DNA from: an uncultured Mycoplasmatota bacterium
Lineage (GTDB): Bacteria; Bacillota_I; Bacilli_A; RF39; UBA660
Reading direction: 5' to 3'
NCBI GenBank assembly: GCA_946498975.1
Contig: CAMMQC010000011.1
Coordinates: 1-41,314, forward strand
DNA: 41,314 bases
Shown: positions 1,229 through 24,316 of the stretch, in pieces
Layout: every line of letters starts with the position of its first letter
Position numbering within the stretch: the first letter of the stretch is position 1
Translations under genes and position numbers: made by a program
Notes under the pieces: model-generated
What the model was told of the DNA's origin: nothing
The model's input: only the letters and a program-made list of their open reading frames with translations
The model's database searches: none

Positions 1229-3755
1229 GAAATATAATCATAAAGAAGTAGAAAAAAATAAGTATAATGAATGGGTAAATAATGGTTATTTTAAAGGTGA
1301 TAAAGATAAGAGTAGAGAACCTTTTTGTATAGTTATCCCACCACCTAATGTTACAGGTAAACTACATTTAGGTCATGCTTGGGATACAACCTTACAAGAT
1401 ATTTTAATTAGATATAAGCGAATGAATGGCTATGATGCTTTGTGGGTTCCAGGAATGGATCATGCTGGTATTGCAACACAGGCTAAAGTTGATAAGAGAT
1501 TAAGAGAAATGGGTATTAATCCTCGGGGTATAACTCGTGATGAATGGTTAGAACATGCTTGGAGTTGGAAAGATGAATATGCTACTACTATTCACGAACA
1601 ATGGGCAAAACTTGGTCTTAGTCTTGATTATACTAAAGAAAGATTTACTTTAGATGAAGGACTTAGTAAAGCGGTTAGATATGTTTTTGTTAAACTTTAT
1701 GAGAAAGGTTTAATTTATAGAGGAGAGAGAATTATTAACTGGGATCCAGTTCAAATGACTGCTTTATCTAATGAAGAGGTTATCTATAAAGAGGATAAGG
1801 GGGCATTTTATCATATTAAATATTATATAACTGGTACTGATGAATACTTAGATGTTGCAACTACTCGTCCAGAGACTTTATTTGGTGATACTGCAGTTGC
1901 TGTTAATCCAAGTGATGATAGATATAAACATTTAATTGGTAAGACAGTAATTCTACCTATTGTTAATAAAGAAATACCAATTGTTGGAGATATTCATGCA
2001 GACCCAGACTTTGGCTCAGGTATCGTAAAAATTACTCCAGCACACGACCCCAACGACTATGAAGTAGGGTTGAGACATAACTTACCTCGGGTTGTGGTAA
2101 TGAATTTAGATGCTACTATGAATGAGAATGCTCCTGGTTATGAGGGAATGACTAGAGAAGAGTGTCGTGAAAAACTAGTAGAAGATTTAAAGAAACAAGA
2201 TTTACTTATTGGTATTGAAGAGATGACTCATAATGTTGGACATAGTGAGAGAAGTGATGCCGTAGTTGAGCCAACTTTATCTAAACAATGGTTTGTTAAG
2301 ATGAGACCACTTGCCGATAGAGTTCTTGAAAATCAAAAGAATAAAGATACTAAAGTAAACTTTGTACCAGAACGTTATGAGAAAACAATGAATCACTGGA
2401 TGGAAATTACTTATGACTGGTGTATATCTCGTCAATTATGGTGGGGACATAGAATACCTGCTTGGTATAAAGGTGATGAGGTTTATGTAGGTATGGATGC
2501 ACCTGATGGTGATGACTGGGTTCAAGATGAAGATGTTCTAGATACTTGGTTTTCATCGGCATTATGGCCATTTTCAACACTAGGTTGGCCAGAAAAGACT
2601 GATTTATTTAAAAGATATTATCCTAATAATGTCTTAGTAACTGGTTATGATATTATTCCATTCTGGGTTAATCGTATGACTTTCCAAGGTTTAGAGTTTA
2701 CAGATAAACGTCCATTTAAAGATTGCCTTATCCATGGCCTTATCCGTGATAAAGAAGGACGTAAGATGAGTAAGTCTTTAGGTAATGGAGTAGATCCAAT
2801 GGATGTTATAGATAAGTATGGTGCAGATAGTTTAAGATTTTTCTTAACTACTAATAGTGCTCCTGGAACAGATTTAAGATATGATGAAGAAAAGATAAAA
2901 TCTACTTGGAACTTTATTAATAAGTTATGGAATGCATCTCGTTATGTTTTGATGAATCTTGAAGATATGAAGACATCAGGATATGATTATCAAAATTTAA
3001 GTAAAGCTGATAAATGGATTTTAACTTTAAAAAATAATTTAATTAAAGATGTTACTAAAAATATGGATAGTTATGATTTTCATAATGTTGGTAATATGTT
3101 ATATAAGTTTATTTGGGAAGACTTTTGTGATAATTATATTGAGTTGAGTAAAGCTAATATGAATGATACAACGAAAGCAGTATTACTTGATGTTTTAACA
3201 ACTATATTAAAGCTTCTTCATCCATTTATGCCTTATGTAACAGAAGAGATTTATCAGATGTTACCATTTAAAGATAGTGAGTCTATTGTAATTAGTACTT
3301 ATCCTAAGTATGATAGTGAGACTGTATTTGATAAGGAAGCTGAAGAAATATCTAAAGTTATAGTTGATTTAAGAGAGATAAGAAATTTAAAGGCTACTAA
3401 TAATATTAAAAAAGATGACAAAGTGATGTTTAGTACTAATAGTGATTTAGAGTATATCTATAAGTCACAATTAAAGATTACTGATGATATTCTTATTAAA
3501 GAACCTTTAGAAGATTATCAATCTATTAACTATAAATCTAGTTTAATTGATATTACTTATTTCTTTAAAAATGAAGTCAATAAAGAAGAGTTGGAAGCAG
3601 ATATTAAGAAGTTAAAAGACTCTATCGAAAGACGTAAGAAGTTACTTAGTAATGAGAATTATGTTAATAAAGCTCCTAAAAATATAGTTGACCTTGATAG
3701 AGAGAAATTAAAAGAAGAAGAAGCTAAGCTTAAGTTATTAGAAGAACAATTGTAA
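1218..3755 (+). CDS. valS: Valine--tRNA ligase
   Basis: Class I aminoacyl-tRNA synthetase that charges tRNA-Val in the cytoplasm. The HIGH motif is HLGH at residues 50-53 inside [15 protein letters not shown]. The KMSKS motif sits in [10 protein letters not shown] near residue 515. Between them is the editing (CP1) domain, with [17 protein letters not shown] and the [20 protein letters not shown] block. The C-terminus is the charged coiled-coil arm typical of ValRS. At 845 residues it is slightly short of the usual ~880. The start at 1218 overlaps the upstream gene. Expression is controlled by the valine T-box. The last codons (LLEEQL-stop) are the sequence duplicated downstream, and the valS copy itself has lost the terminator half of the hairpin, which now lies 1.25 kb away at 5002-5028. 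Confidence 0.98.
3703..3755 (+). repeat. valS 3' tail, copy 1
   Basis: The last ~50 bases of valS, from AGAAATTAAAAGAAGAAG to the stop, recur at 4967-5013 with a 3-base gap and a few substitutions, including the stop (TGTAA here, TATAG there). The shared core includes GCTAAGCTTAAGTTATTAGA. Confidence 0.9.
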
Positions 3756-3756
3756 A

Positions 3757-4941
3757 ATGAAACAATTAATTAGAATAAGCTTTGATACACTTGTAAATAG
3801 TGTATTCTTCATTTTATTTTGTATAGTTTTAACTGTTTTAGTTGATGATAATATTTTGTCTATTTTTACATTGACATATCCAATTCAGTTGTTGCCTAGT
3901 ATTTTAAAAACTGTATTTGCTACTGGTCCTAATATTTTGAAAGAAAAACATGGTAGGGATGATGATGTTTTCTCAGCTTTAACTGTTGGAATAATTATAA
4001 CAGTATTGATTTTCTTTATATTACTGTTAAATATAGATAACTATATTAATTTTATGAATGGTAATTATATTGATAAAAAGGAGCTTGTTTCTTTCTTCAT
4101 TATTGAAATATTTTTTCAAACAATATTAGGTTATATATTAACTATATTTTATTATAAATCAGATAATGAACTAGCTAATAAAGTTTCTCTTAGTTTTAAT
4201 CTTATAAATCTTATTGTTATTATTTTAGCTGCCCTTATTTTTGATAATAATATATTAATTATTTTGACTACTACTATATTAATGAGTGTATATTTAATAA
4301 TTTTATTATTTAAAGTCTATAAAAAATTTATTTTCAAATTTAATATTCTTGAATGGATAAAATATGATTTAGTTTCTTTGGTTGATGATTCTTTGCTGTT
4401 AGTTGGTTATTTATTTAGTTTGAGTAGCGCTATGATATATGGTGAACAATATAGTGCTGCATTAGCATTTTCTTCATTAATTACAGATATACAATGGGAT
4501 ATAAGTTATTCTATTTCTACTGTTGCAAAAATAAATATAAGTAAGAAAAAGTTTAATTATAAAGAACACTTAAAAAACTCTTATAAATTAATTGCAATTT
4601 TAATATTAAGTATTTTTGTAATGTTCATTATTGCTTATCCTATATATAAACCTGATTTATTAATAACTTTTAGTTATCTAATATTTCATATTATAGATTT
4701 TATTATTTATCCAGTTTATAGGACTAAAACTTGTTATTTACAATTGGAATATTCTATTATTAAAACAAACATAAATAATTTAATTAATAAAGTTATTAGA
4801 GTTTTATTATCTTTATTAGTTACACCTTATGCTACAGTGATAGCTCAATTATGCTCTTCTTTGTATCAATACTTTTCAATGAATATTTTATTTTTAAAAC
4901 ATTATAAAATAAATAATAAGGGTAATGTTATTAACAGATAA
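3757..4941 (+). CDS. Multi-pass membrane protein, flippase/MATE-like
   Basis: A 394-residue, very hydrophobic protein with about a dozen predicted membrane segments and short Lys/Asn-rich loops. The size and the repeated pattern of helices fit the MOP (MATE/polysaccharide flippase) superfamily, but no diagnostic motif is readable, so this is a fold-level guess. It starts one base after the valS stop with only a weak ribosome site inside the valS tail. It is bracketed by two copies of the valS 3' tail (3703-3755 and 4967-5013), so it looks inserted between valS and its terminator. No transposase or integrase accompanies it. Confidence 0.75.
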   Translation: MKQLIRISFDTLVNSVFFILFCIVLTVLVDDNILSIFTLTYPIQLLPSILKTVFATGPNILKEKHGRDDDVFSALTVGIIITVLIFFILLLNIDNYINFMNGNYIDKKELVSFFIIEIFFQTILGYILTIFYYKSDNELANKVSLSFNLINLIVIILAALIFDNNILIILTTTILMSVYLIILLFKVYKKFIFKFNILEWIKYDLVSLVDDSLLLVGYLFSLSSAMIYGEQYSAALAFSSLITDIQWDISYSISTVAKINISKKKFNYKEHLKNSYKLIAILILSIFVMFIIAYPIYKPDLLITFSYLIFHIIDFIIYPVYRTKTCYLQLEYSIIKTNINNLINKVIRVLLSLLVTPYATVIAQLCSSLYQYFSMNILFLKHYKINNKGNVINR

Positions 4942-19574: not shown

Positions 19575-19603
19575 TATACAAAAGTGTTTGTATAGTTTAT
19601 AAT
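19575..19603 (+). promoter_or_regulatory. Promoter of the TIGR04141-HEPN unit
   Basis: TATACA (19575-19580), 17 bases, TATAAT (19598-19603), immediately after the McrC stop. Confidence 0.55.
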
Positions 19604-19609
19604 ATAAGA

Positions 19610-19653
19610 AAAAGGCGCTAGTACAGGCTTTATAGTTTTGTATTGCGTCTTTT
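19610..19653 (+). terminator. Long hairpin: terminator of the R-M operon or attenuator of the next unit
   Basis: AAAAGGCGC (19610-19618) pairs with GCGTCTTTT (19645-19653) with one G-T, with a 26-base loop holding a possible inner TACA/TGTA stem. It lies downstream of the predicted promoter at 19575-19603, so it would be in the leader of the next transcript and might attenuate it. Confidence 0.55.
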
Positions 19654-19672
19654 ATTGTAGGAAGTGAAGTTT

Positions 19673-21229
19673 ATGAGTAGTAAAACGAAAAAATCTAACA
19701 AAATAACTATATATTTAATTAAGGATGGTATAGAGTATGATAAAATATTAAAAGATTATGCATATGATCAAATATTAAGTGAAGATGATAAGTCAGTTAC
19801 TTATTATTATCCAACTCAGAAAAAAATTCCAGTATGGTTAAGTTCATATTTTAATATAACAACTGATGTAGGTATAAACAATGCAAATGCAAAGGTTATC
19901 TCACTGCACCAATTAACAATAGATGGTGAAGAAAAAATATTTGCAATACCGTTTGGAAGTGGAAAATATTTGTTAAATGATGATGTCATTGAGGAACAAT
20001 TTGGTATAAGAGTATTATTAAATAGTGTTACAAAAGATGGTTTTAGGCAATTGAGTACTTCAAACTATGGTGGGGATCACAGAACCAAAAACGAGCAAAC
20101 TCCTAAAAAAACTGATATAGGTGAATTTGGATTTGATATACATAGTGATTTCTTAAGAAAAGCAATAGCCAAAAGTGAAGAGGAGTTGTTTAACAAAAAT
20201 ACTATAACTGGTGGAGACTTATTGAGTGTTTCTGTTCCTGTAAACATAAGTAATATAAATGATTTTTTGGTGAAATGCTATAATAGATATAAAAGTGATA
20301 ATTACAAAAAGGATTTTGCTTGGTTGGACAATATAAAGGAAGTTAAAGAAAAAGAACTTAAAGTCAAATTGGATCAAGAATTACTAAAAATTATAAATAA
20401 TCATGATTTTTCAAGAGTGTGGTCTGCAGTTCCTGAGGTTATAGAATGGGAAAATATTTTAGATTTTCGATATAAAAAAGCAAAGGTAGGTTATGATGAT
20501 ATTGAAATGCAAAATATAATTGAGTTATTTCCTAATGAAATCATTCCTGATATAGATTTGTTAAAAAGAAGACAAGTATTTGCTATGGCTCTAGATGGAG
20601 AAGAAGAACTTTATAAGTGGAAAATTTATAAGTGCATTATAGCAGAGATAGAATATAAAAATAATGTTTATTGTTTGAATTTTGGTAAATGGTATAAAGT
20701 AAAGAATGACTTTGTAAATTTGACAAGTGAATATTATAGTAAAGTTCCATTGTCTAATATTGATTTTCCAGATGCTAATAATGAGCGTGAGTCTAAGTAT
20801 AATGAAAAATTAAGTAGCTATCTTAATAATTCAATACTTATGGATAAAGAAACTGTGAGAATGACTGGAATGGGAAGAAGTTCAATAGAAGTTTGTGATG
20901 TATTAACTGATAACAAAGAGTTAATACATGTTAAGAAAAATGGTGGTTCTAGTTATTTAAGTCATTTGTTTAATCAAGCTGCTGTTTCAGGAGAAATTTT
21001 ATTAGATGTCAATTTTAGAAATGAAGTCAATAAAAAAATGCTAAAAACTGTCTTTTCAACAGATTTTATTTCTAACGATTATACTATAGTATTAGCCATC
21101 ATTACAAATAGTAATACTGACAGACCTAAAATACCATTTTTTAGTAAAGTTTCAATTCAATATGCAATTGAAGGTTTAAAAAGAAAAGGATATAATGTTG
21201 AAATTAAAAATATATATAATAAAAAGTAA
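19673..21229 (+). CDS. TIGR04141-family (DUF6119) sporadically distributed protein
   Basis: 518 residues from ATG 19673, with GGAAGTG 6 bases before it; a GTG at 19664 is also open. The start KSNKITIYLIKDGIEYDKIL and the C-terminal block DVLTDNKELIHVKKNGGSSYLSHLF, with FNQAAVSGEILL after it, are the features by which I recognise the TIGR04141 family. The ELIHVKKNGGSSYLSHL segment (D/E...xxK) resembles a PD-(D/E)XK-like core, which would make it a nuclease; that is inference. The family is scattered on mobile and defence islands with no firm function. It is followed after 23 bases by a HEPN protein in the same transcript. Confidence 0.8.
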   Translation: MSSKTKKSNKITIYLIKDGIEYDKILKDYAYDQILSEDDKSVTYYYPTQKKIPVWLSSYFNITTDVGINNANAKVISLHQLTIDGEEKIFAIPFGSGKYLLNDDVIEEQFGIRVLLNSVTKDGFRQLSTSNYGGDHRTKNEQTPKKTDIGEFGFDIHSDFLRKAIAKSEEELFNKNTITGGDLLSVSVPVNISNINDFLVKCYNRYKSDNYKKDFAWLDNIKEVKEKELKVKLDQELLKIINNHDFSRVWSAVPEVIEWENILDFRYKKAKVGYDDIEMQNIIELFPNEIIPDIDLLKRRQVFAMALDGEEELYKWKIYKCIIAEIEYKNNVYCLNFGKWYKVKNDFVNLTSEYYSKVPLSNIDFPDANNERESKYNEKLSSYLNNSILMDKETVRMTGMGRSSIEVCDVLTDNKELIHVKKNGGSSYLSHLFNQAAVSGEILLDVNFRNEVNKKMLKTVFSTDFISNDYTIVLAIITNSNTDRPKIPFFSKVSIQYAIEGLKRKGYNVEIKNIYNKK

Positions 21230-21252
21230 AAAAATATAGGAGATGAATTAAT

Positions 21253-22542
21253 ATGTGTAGTGATTTTAGTTTTAGTTATAATAAGCCTTTTAAGTTAAAA
21301 GATATAGGTCGGTGTTGGGACACAATATTAGATATGAAAGAGAATGGTGTTGAGTTAAAAATTAATAATGTAGAAGTTGATGATATTTTAAACCCAAATA
21401 TAAAAAAAGGAAAATTAGTTGACCCAAAAATATTATATTTAGTAGATAGCAAATTAAATACTTTTACTTTACTTAATACTTTTCATAAAAGTAGTACATA
21501 TCGAGCTATTTCCTATTCTACAGTTTATGCATCTAAATATGTAATGGGTCTAACACAACCAGAAAAAGAAATTACTCATTTTACAAAAGGAACAAAAATT
21601 AAAAAAATTTATTATTACCAAAACGATTTAAATTATATTTTTAACAATCCTTCTGTATTTATCAAAAGAAAACTTGTGTCAAATTCTAAATACATAAGTG
21701 TAGAAGCAAAAAGAAAAAAAGATATTCTAATGGGTAATATAACAATTGATAATAATGAAGTAAAAGTATTTTTAATCAATTCTTTTAATGTTGCAAACTT
21801 TACTAGAAATATTAATGTTGTTCCAACAAATTATATAAGATTAGAATTCAAACATTATATTAATTTTGATTTTGCTTATAAAATAAAAAGAAGAATTGAC
21901 GCAATACTTCACATATTGATTTTTACTAATAATATAAGTAATAAATTAGAATTTGTAGATACAAAGAAGAATAGATTTACTTATTTTGATTTAGATAATA
22001 AATATAATGAAAGATCACTAACATTACCATCTTTTAACACAAAAAATACAGAATTAATTTTTATTAAATTATTTGACTTGTTTTTGAATATACCAGATGA
22101 AGAAATTAATGCTTTTTTACCATTTTTAGATTTTTATAGGAATAAACCTTCAGTAGAAATAGAATTTCTTGAGTACTACAGAATGTTAGAGCTAATTGCA
22201 AAGATTAAAAATCAAGAATTGCAAAAAGGTAAAAATCAACTTTTTACATTACAATTAATAAGAAAATATCCTTACTTAAAAAAACAATATTTTGGTAATC
22301 AACCAGATGAAGAATTAGAAGAAGAATTGAGAGAATTAAGGAATTATTATTCACATGAGGGTTATTATTTAGATATATTGCCGATTACTAAGAATAAGCA
22401 AATTATTCGATATAAAAATGTAAATTCACAATGGAAGGTAGATACAAAAAATTTTATAAAAAAAATAGCATATTTAGAAATATATAATATGGCAGGGATC
22501 CAGATTGATGAAAAAGAATTTATTAGTAATGTCCCAATTTAA
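21253..22542 (+). CDS. HEPN (RxxxxH) protein, ApeA-like
   Basis: 429 residues. The C-terminal part has the HEPN RNase signature R363-NYYS-H368 (ELRNYYSHEGYY), after a helical region with EFLEYYRMLELIAKIK. The N-terminal part is beta-rich, with FTLLNTFHKSS...YRAISYSTVYASKYVMG and KIYYYQNDLNYIF, resembling the N-terminal domain of ApeA-type phage defence proteins. Expected action: RNA cleavage causing growth arrest when a trigger is sensed. It follows the TIGR04141 gene by 23 bases with an AGGAGAT-like site (TAGGAGATG), so they form a likely two-gene unit. Similarity to ApeA is by eye and moderate; the HEPN motif itself is clear. Confidence 0.75.
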   Translation: MCSDFSFSYNKPFKLKDIGRCWDTILDMKENGVELKINNVEVDDILNPNIKKGKLVDPKILYLVDSKLNTFTLLNTFHKSSTYRAISYSTVYASKYVMGLTQPEKEITHFTKGTKIKKIYYYQNDLNYIFNNPSVFIKRKLVSNSKYISVEAKRKKDILMGNITIDNNEVKVFLINSFNVANFTRNINVVPTNYIRLEFKHYINFDFAYKIKRRIDAILHILIFTNNISNKLEFVDTKKNRFTYFDLDNKYNERSLTLPSFNTKNTELIFIKLFDLFLNIPDEEINAFLPFLDFYRNKPSVEIEFLEYYRMLELIAKIKNQELQKGKNQLFTLQLIRKYPYLKKQYFGNQPDEELEEELRELRNYYSHEGYYLDILPITKNKQIIRYKNVNSQWKVDTKNFIKKIAYLEIYNMAGIQIDEKEFISNVPI

Positions 22543-22639: not shown

Positions 22640-22666
22640 TAATACAAAAGAAAGATGTGGTTAATA

Positions 22667-24316
22667 ATGGAGATTGACTTTAAAGATGATTTTAATACTA
22701 GGATATTATCAAGAGGTTATGAATACTATGAAGATGGTTTAGTAGAAGATGTTTTATTAAAAGGTAATATTGTAACTGCAAAAGTCTTAGGAACTGAAAC
22801 TTATGATGTCTCTGTTGAAATAGATAATGGTATATTTATAGATGGAGATTGCACTTGCCATTATGCAAGTGATGGCTCTTACTGTAAACATATGGCAGCA
22901 TTATTATATTATTTAGATAATGAGAATCTAGATGAAAATAATAATTATACTACTAAAGAAAAAGAGATTAGAGATAGTCTTAAAACAATTAACAAGATAG
23001 AATTAGATGATTTCTTAGTAGAATTATTAATTGAAGATAGGGATGTTTATGATAAGTTTAGATTAAGATTTAATAAATCATTCCCTAGTTTAACTATTGA
23101 AGATTATGAAAATAAAATATATAGTGCTATTGAAAGCAGTGCTGGTCGTGATGGTTTTATAGATTATCATGAGTCATGGGATTATACTAAAAATATGCAT
23201 AAGATAACTAGTGAAGTAAATACTTTAGTTGATAATGGAGAATATGATTTAGCATTTGAAGTTGCTAAAACTATCTTAGAAACCATTCCTGAAACTGATA
23301 TTGATGATTCTAATGGATCTACAGGTGAAGTAGCAGATTCATGTATAGAAATAATTGAAAGAATATTAGAATATATATTATATGATGAAAATATCTTGGC
23401 TAAGAAAATTTTAGATTATATTTTAAATGAGACAAAGACAGAATATCTTTCTAATTATTCTATTGAATTATCCCCATTGTTAGATTTATATGTTGAAAGA
23501 AATATATATCTTGATGAAATAGAAAAAGGATTATTAGATGCATTAGAACTAGGAAAGAGTAAAAAGTACTTTTGGAATGCTAAACATTATGTAGATATCT
23601 TGGTAGATATTTATAATAAAGAAGGTGCCAAAGAAAAGATAATTAATCTATTAAAAAAATATTCTGCTGATGGTGATATTTGTTTAAAATTAGTTGAAGA
23701 ATACTTAAAAGAAGATAATGTTAAAGATGCTATTATTTTATTAAAGACTAGATTAAAAGAAGATAGTAATAGAGATTATGCATATAAACTATCTGATATA
23801 TATCTAAAAGAAAATATGATGGAAGAATATAAAGATATTTTGTATCAGTTATTATTTGAATATGATAAGTATGATATAGATGTTTATAAGAAGATAAAAC
23901 ATTTATATTCAAAGCAAGAGTGGTTAAAAGAAAGTGAAAATATTATAAATAGAATTACTAAAGAAGAACGATTTCACTTTTATGATGATAAATTATTAAG
24001 GATTTATATAGAAGAGAAAAAGTATGATGATATGTATAATTTGTTGAAGGATAAAGATATGAGTACTATTATGGAATATGAACAATTTCTTCTACCTAAA
24101 TATAATAAAGAATTAATAAGTATTTATGTGAAATGTTGTAAAAATTTTGCAAGTAAAGCCTATAATAGAAGTATGTATAGTGAATTAGCAAGAGATATGC
24201 TTCATATAAAGAAAATGAAAAATAGTGAGAATGAATATACTAAATTATTTGAAGAGATGAGAGAAAAATATCGTAATAGGCCTGCTATGCAAGATGAATT
24301 ATCACAAGTATTATAG
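22667..24316 (+). CDS. SWIM zinc-finger protein with helical repeats
   Basis: About 549 residues from ATG 22667 (ATG 22655 in the same frame has its purine-rich site too close). Residues about 55-75 hold a SWIM finger: CTCHYASDGSYCKHM, the C-x-C...C-x-H zinc ligands. The start DFNTRILSRGYEYYEDGLVEDV is the usual lead-in of this family. The rest (~450 residues) is helical and repeat-like (YDLAFEVAKTILE, EKIINLLKKYS, DAIILLKTRLKE), probably TPR-type scaffolding. SWIM domains bind DNA or proteins. It has its own promoter and terminator and lies immediately before the Wadjet operon; whether it belongs to it is unknown. Confidence 0.88.
   Translation: MEIDFKDDFNTRILSRGYEYYEDGLVEDVLLKGNIVTAKVLGTETYDVSVEIDNGIFIDGDCTCHYASDGSYCKHMAALLYYLDNENLDENNNYTTKEKEIRDSLKTINKIELDDFLVELLIEDRDVYDKFRLRFNKSFPSLTIEDYENKIYSAIESSAGRDGFIDYHESWDYTKNMHKITSEVNTLVDNGEYDLAFEVAKTILETIPETDIDDSNGSTGEVADSCIEIIERILEYILYDENILAKKILDYILNETKTEYLSNYSIELSPLLDLYVERNIYLDEIEKGLLDALELGKSKKYFWNAKHYVDILVDIYNKEGAKEKIINLLKKYSADGDICLKLVEEYLKEDNVKDAIILLKTRLKEDSNRDYAYKLSDIYLKENMMEEYKDILYQLLFEYDKYDIDVYKKIKHLYSKQEWLKESENIINRITKEERFHFYDDKLLRIYIEEKKYDDMYNLLKDKDMSTIMEYEQFLLPKYNKELISIYVKCCKNFASKAYNRSMYSELARDMLHIKKMKNSENEYTKLFEEMREKYRNRPAMQDELSQVL

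Follow-up and report, generated by a model that had tools for sequence, protein, structure and literature searches.

A hairpin leader shared by a DUF6119-HEPN gene pair and unrelated defence genes in one family of uncultured Bacilli

PrrC is a HEPN anticodon nuclease encoded behind the type I restriction-modification (R-M) system PrrI, and in ToxIN and AbiF a short structured RNA with a terminator-like end is located directly upstream of the protein gene. AbiF has been described as a single RNA-controlled defence system (PMC12373285). In Pseudomonas, many defence genes are under the common control of Gac/Rsm (PMC11888443). The N-terminal domain of ApeA proteins is beta-rich, comprises about 300 amino acids and is followed by a HEPN domain; in some cases the genes lie within R-M operons (Anantharaman et al. 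2013, PMC3710099). For the DUF6119/TIGR04141 family, no function is described in the open-access literature searched. Bacteria may carry dozens of defence genes that are costly and sometimes suicidal, and by what means these remain silent before an infection is an open question.

Here we consider two adjacent genes, encoding a DUF6119 protein and a HEPN-type protein, and the leader preceding them. They lie in a stretch of 41,314 nucleotides, below called the window, from an uncultured bacterium with a genome of 1.5 Mb. On balance, and with modest confidence, we read this feature as a mobile anti-phage cassette made of a leader, a probable DUF6119 DNase and an optional predicted HEPN RNase, in which the leader would act as a shared attenuator.

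The locus and its two proteins

All elements of the cassette are on the forward strand. A promoter-like pair TATACA-17-TATAAT (19575..19603) matches the -35 and -10 boxes in 10 of 12 positions. Its TATAAT is kept before the same leader at other loci, which supports the claim of the original prediction that the pair has its own promoter; that prediction missed, however, that the leader behind the promoter is shared with unrelated defence genes. The leader (19598-19660) consists of promoter and terminator-like hairpin, the latter separating the -10 box from the DUF6119 start codon. The hairpin with its U-tract occupies 19609..19660 (fold z = -3.4), its 5' arm GCGCTAGTACAGGCTTT being at 19615-19631, and is followed by a ribosome-binding stretch AGGAAGTGA (19655..19672). 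A generic promoter and terminator scan of the window, which was not taken as evidence by itself, performed no better than on shuffled sequences and did not flag the hairpin as a terminator.

The DUF6119 gene (19673..21229) encodes a protein of 518 amino acids with a C-terminal PD-(D/E)XK-like domain. Its likely start codon, as judged from the comparison with the homologous locus L003, is ATG 19673; the same comparison disfavours GTG 19664. After a gap of 23 nt, the spacing already given by the original prediction, comes the gene of a predicted HEPN-type RNase (21253..22542, 429 amino acids). The neighbouring genes are as had been foreseen, with R-M genes on one side and Wadjet on the other: two C5-methyltransferases, an NgoFVII-type endonuclease, McrB and McrC are encoded 5' of the pair, whereas a gene for a SWIM/PDC-S62 protein and then Wadjet, with JetC matching a solved JetC at 1e-165, are found 3' of it. 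The SWIM zinc-finger/TPR protein between the pair and Wadjet (22655-24316; PDC-S62 match 2e-26) has a diverged counterpart in the same position in locus L002.

The first protein matches the DUF6119 model (PF19614) with 435.8 bits against the Pfam cut-off of 27, and the TIGR04141 model with 415.4 bits against the NCBIfam cut-off of 35, over the full length in both cases. Such scores leave the proposed TIGR04141 assignment secure. Among 18 homologues with 16-86% identity, the putative catalytic residues E406, D409, K421 and Q435 are invariant; the position two before K, usually D or E, is mostly H, and C, A or Y in some proteins. In the predicted structure, most residues of the C-terminal domain (about 366-518) have pLDDT of about 80-90, and PD-(D/E)XK enzymes prevail among the best structural matches: CdiA-CT nuclease (Z 7.1, a Z of about 7 being in the range reachable by unrelated models), EndoMS/NucS (6.6), HamA (5.5), SduA (4.3) and, also among the best ones, EcoT38I. 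All Foldseek E-values are above 0.01, and an unrelated fold, human CD38, comes near Z 5. The nuclease-like core suggested by the original prediction agrees with the conserved set of acidic residues and lysine, the Z of the fold match being modest. It is likely, though not proven, that the C-terminus adopts the PD-(D/E)XK nuclease fold, and conserved residues and modelled structure together make the protein a probable DNA-cutting enzyme.

The distribution of the DUF6119 family is sporadic. Type I R-M operons on alphaproteobacterial plasmids contain a DUF6119 gene placed between hsdS and hsdR (L049, L050, L054, L055); there the reading frames touch or overlap, and a gene for an SprT-like protease follows. 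On a Pseudomonas phage and on viral contigs DUF6119 is a lone gene, in several cases beside an integrase (lone phage or prophage loci L047, L059, L060, L062, L063, L064).

The second protein contains the motif R363-N-Y-Y-S-H368, in which R363, N364 and H368 are invariant in six homologues with 27-76% identity. The R-x4-H motif had been correctly located, and it has the form typical of the HEPN superfamily, Rx4-6H with a polar residue after R. The protein has no match in Pfam, NCBIfam or PADLOC, including ApeA_NTD1 (PF18862), HEPN_Apea (PF18739) and the PADLOC models of ApeA. Its relative from L029 (40% identity) is matched by ApeA_NTD1 over residues 42-264 with 2.8e-5 and 24.2 bits, just below the cut-off of 25.5. 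Profile alignment by hhalign with four ApeA or HEPN-like proteins brought the R-x4-H region into register in three of them, without significance. Helices are predicted for residues 266-426; the AlphaFold model, made from a three-row alignment, has a pLDDT of 35. The label "ApeA-like" therefore holds as a distant resemblance in architecture, but not as membership: the tests with ApeA models failed, and the protein is best described as a predicted HEPN RNase of ApeA-like architecture. Its relatives were found only in the bacterial family of the source genome, and searches of plasmids, phages and viral contigs with the protein and two of its relatives returned nothing.

Recurrence of the gene pair

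Both genes are present in two further loci, L002 and L003, which belong to metagenome-assembled genomes of uncultured Bacilli from a public genome set. In L002 the proteins are 98-99% identical to those of the window and the flanks, where covered, are the same. In L003 the identity is 86% for DUF6119 and 76% for the HEPN protein, the gap between the genes is 21 nt, and the flanks differ, with a type I hsdR gene upstream and no SWIM gene downstream. The homology between the window and L003 extends from the TATAAT box at 19598 to 3 nt past the stop codon of the HEPN gene (22545) and ends there. Since it is bounded by the ends of the cassette and the flanks are different, the pair moves together. 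The original prediction would have been abandoned if no second genome had the pair; L003 provides one, in another lineage and in other surroundings.

The pairing is not strict. Among 291 genomes of the family, relatives of the HEPN gene are found in six more, intact in five (G558, G444, G517, G579, G594) and degraded in one, and none of these six genomes has a DUF6119 match. The intact relatives that were aligned are 27-40% identical to the window protein. One relative (L032) is encoded 33 nt after hsdS. The degraded copy (L005/L021, G323:C18 about 3100-3860) contains internal stop codons. The closest relative of the DUF6119 protein (L040, 67% identity) is encoded behind the same leader without a HEPN gene, and this locus and the window are homologous between position 19605 and a point 9 nt beyond the stop codon of DUF6119. 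In the distant DUF6119 loci examined, from plasmids, phages and other Bacilli, no homologue of this HEPN protein adjoins. As the homology with L040 stops after DUF6119 and each gene occurs alone, the HEPN gene is an optional second gene.

One could still imagine an obligate two-gene system, in which DUF6119 would sense or cut, the HEPN RNase would kill, and both would be needed. Spacing of 23 and 21 nt has been kept in two lineages despite different flanks, there is one promoter, and no terminator was found between the genes. However, the five genomes with an intact HEPN gene and no DUF6119, the lone DUF6119 behind the same leader in L040, and the DUF6119 genes standing alone in prophages and within type I R-M operons make this improbable. 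The two-gene unit of the original prediction is thus upheld as a recurring arrangement but weakened as an obligate one: the adjacency of DUF6119 and HEPN is a facultative new arrangement of two already known families.

The leader and the genes behind it

The 5' arm of the hairpin is identical in the window, L002, L003 and L040, that is, across the three lineages carrying the DUF6119 gene. In its own genome the window leader is the sole copy, as determined both by a pattern allowing 3 mismatches and by a covariance model. In the family, however, leader sites are numerous: 38 sites in 30 of 154 genomes, against one for a reversed control pattern. In 131 genomes outside the family the pattern gave 14 hits against about 17 for the control, so these can be considered chance matches, and the leader is confined almost only to this family. 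Rfam gave chance matches only, none at the gathering score. Five of the pattern hits lack a hairpin (L074, L078, L083, L085, L102) and were left out.

Most of the other sites have the same geometry. An exact TATAAT occurs shortly before the motif at 19 of 32 sites, compared to 0-3 of 31-32 for each of five flanking windows that have the same length. The stem is long, and at 33 of 35 sites the hairpin is followed by at least six T within 8 nt, the layout of a terminator or attenuator, with a stem and then a U-tract between promoter and gene. The start codon is mostly 54-70 nt after the start of the motif, with a Shine-Dalgarno stretch between them at most sites. The second position of the stem shows two-sided compensating changes (C-G 27, G-C 3, T-A 2). 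The sites were retrieved through their 5' arm, so that covariation in this arm is under-sampled. Over 21 different downstream genes the identity is 0.93 in the motif, 0.76 in the 3' arm, U-tract and Shine-Dalgarno region, and 0.61 in the flanks, the last value being at the level of shuffled sequences.

Behind the leader there are unrelated defence genes: Shedu, Hachiman, Tmn, Gabija/OLD, Ppl-like, DUF3644-HEPN, kinases and DUF6119. Matches to PADLOC models at 1e-5 or better were obtained for 15 of the 19 downstream genes scanned. The specific ones are PDC-S19/DUF3644 (4e-87), Tmn (1e-63; also YobI-ATPase, 4e-98), HamB (1e-54, with a 236-aa gene ahead of it in the position of HamA), GajA/Old (2e-54, with an OLD-like TOPRIM), SduA (1e-45), Ppl (4e-20; two proteins of the PHP-ATPase type) and a PifA-like protein. 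The remaining matches, to a kinase (PD-T4-6/mad6), AAA, helicase and REase, are less specific, the ATPase, kinase and helicase models being broad. The link between leader and defence is strong but not exclusive, as is seen from the sites, with the same or a variant leader, ahead of secreted Cys-rich repeat proteins (L069, L084, L091) and of AMP ligases (L098, L099), neither of which has a link to defence.

Three leader-headed genes have no PADLOC match: L104 978-2960 (661 aa), L107 3306-5174 (623 aa) and L105 1118-2302, which encodes a ClpP-like SDH protease of 395 aa. They are candidates for new defence genes. The leader could serve as a sequence tag for new defence genes, such as DUF6119 and several unannotated proteins, that is independent of defence islands. 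It was not found before the HEPN genes standing alone or before the distant DUF6119 genes. At two of the latter, L041 (upstream of 386) and L042 (upstream of 6363), other, unrelated and very stable hairpins are situated directly before DUF6119; that of L041 has z about -6 against mononucleotide shuffles and a U-tract.

The leader also coincides with the joints between homologous and non-homologous DNA. Loci with the same downstream gene start matching at the leader, the window and L003 at -17, L079 and L088 at -20. Conversely, the DNA of L072, L073, L097 and L103 is 90-96% identical as far as +52..+61 of the leader; beyond this point the loci differ and contain Shedu, PDC-S73, an unassigned sequence and Hachiman. 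These four loci share the upstream gene, Fic-like by eye, and look like an exchange hotspot. Their hairpin is 4-12 nt after the upstream stop codon with no -10 box between, and could be the upstream gene's own terminator. Since homology starts or stops at the leader, we consider it a common control region and a place of defence-gene exchange; likewise, the limits of homology with L003 and L040 place the end of the cassette at the leader and make the HEPN gene an add-on.

Possible mode of regulation and comparison with known systems

If the leader is an attenuator, transcription would start about 5-10 nt ahead of the hairpin. In resting cells, a large part of this transcription would end at the U-tract, keeping the potentially toxic nucleases low. 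Read-through might be allowed by a factor reading the invariant 5' arm, or by RNA polymerase altered in infection. These are likelier than a riboswitch, because the RNA ahead of the hairpin offers little sequence from which a competing anti-terminator could be formed. DUF6119 would then be made and attack DNA, and the HEPN RNase may provide an abortive second line of protection against the phage, as PrrC backs up PrrI. Homologous recombination in the leader would swap defence genes under the same control. The shared promoter and hairpin before unrelated anti-phage genes point to shared control of bacterial immunity. More tentatively, at slightly less than even confidence, one may suppose a dedicated leader RNA that attenuates many unrelated plug-in anti-phage systems, switched on by a common infection-linked signal.

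Other explanations of the leader have to be weighed against attenuation. It may mainly stabilise the 5' end of mRNA, or simply terminate the upstream gene. It would then play no part in regulation, and its spread would be due to linkage with mobile defence cassettes. The hairpin is indeed very stable and close to the expected 5' end of the RNA, it directly follows the upstream stop codon at four loci, and its sharing is tied to cassette joints. However, conservation of the 5' arm is far beyond the need of pairing, whereas the 3' arm varies with the pairs kept, and a -10 box is ahead of the hairpin at most sites; we regard this explanation as rather unlikely. The same joints, with homology beginning or ending at the leader on either side, would suit a DNA site for integration or cassette exchange that does not act as RNA. 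Such a site is difficult to reconcile with a U-tract that is always on the gene side and with fixed spacing to the -10 box and the start codon. Moreover, there is one copy per cassette, one in the window and its genome, and no integrase tied to the leader, so that a pure recombination site is hardly probable.

Finally, the leader RNA could bind and inhibit the downstream protein, as in type III toxin-antitoxin systems or AbiF. A short structured RNA with a terminator-like end directly before a predicted nuclease, and the presence of a HEPN gene, resemble such systems. But it is a single hairpin with no tandem repeats, and the same RNA precedes unrelated folds, namely a helicase, P-loop NTPases, a kinase and Shedu. 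As the folds are unrelated, it cannot be the cognate inhibitor of each protein, and we find this explanation extremely unlikely. Attenuation remains the preferred reading. One leader preceding Shedu, Hachiman, Tmn, Gabija/OLD, Ppl-like, HEPN and kinase genes makes the question of how defence is kept silent before infection testable with one reporter.

A leader common to unrelated defence systems and serving as a cassette joint is not described in the open-access literature searched. The DUF6119 protein resembles its family in the full-length match, the sporadic distribution and the R-M linkage seen in relatives, but its gene has a shared leader in front of it and a HEPN gene after it. The HEPN protein has the beta-rich N-terminal domain of about 270-300 amino acids, the putative C-terminal HEPN domain and the Rx4H motif with a polar residue after R that are known from ApeA; however, it fails the Pfam and PADLOC models, and profile comparison with the ApeA proteins tried gave no significant match. 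As in PrrC/PrrI, a predicted suicidal HEPN RNase adjoins R-M genes, downstream of hsdR in L003 and after hsdS in L032, but it lacks the ABC ATPase domain, and its coupling to R-M is known here as gene adjacency. In AbiF and ToxIN, too, a structured RNA and a terminator-like element precede the defence gene; there each system has an RNA of its own, whereas here one type of leader precedes many unrelated systems. In this respect the situation is analogous to the Gac/Rsm regulon (PMC11888443), where many unrelated defence genes are under one type of post-transcriptional control, although the RNA signal and the bacteria are different, and the leader described here is at the same time a cassette joint and terminator-like.
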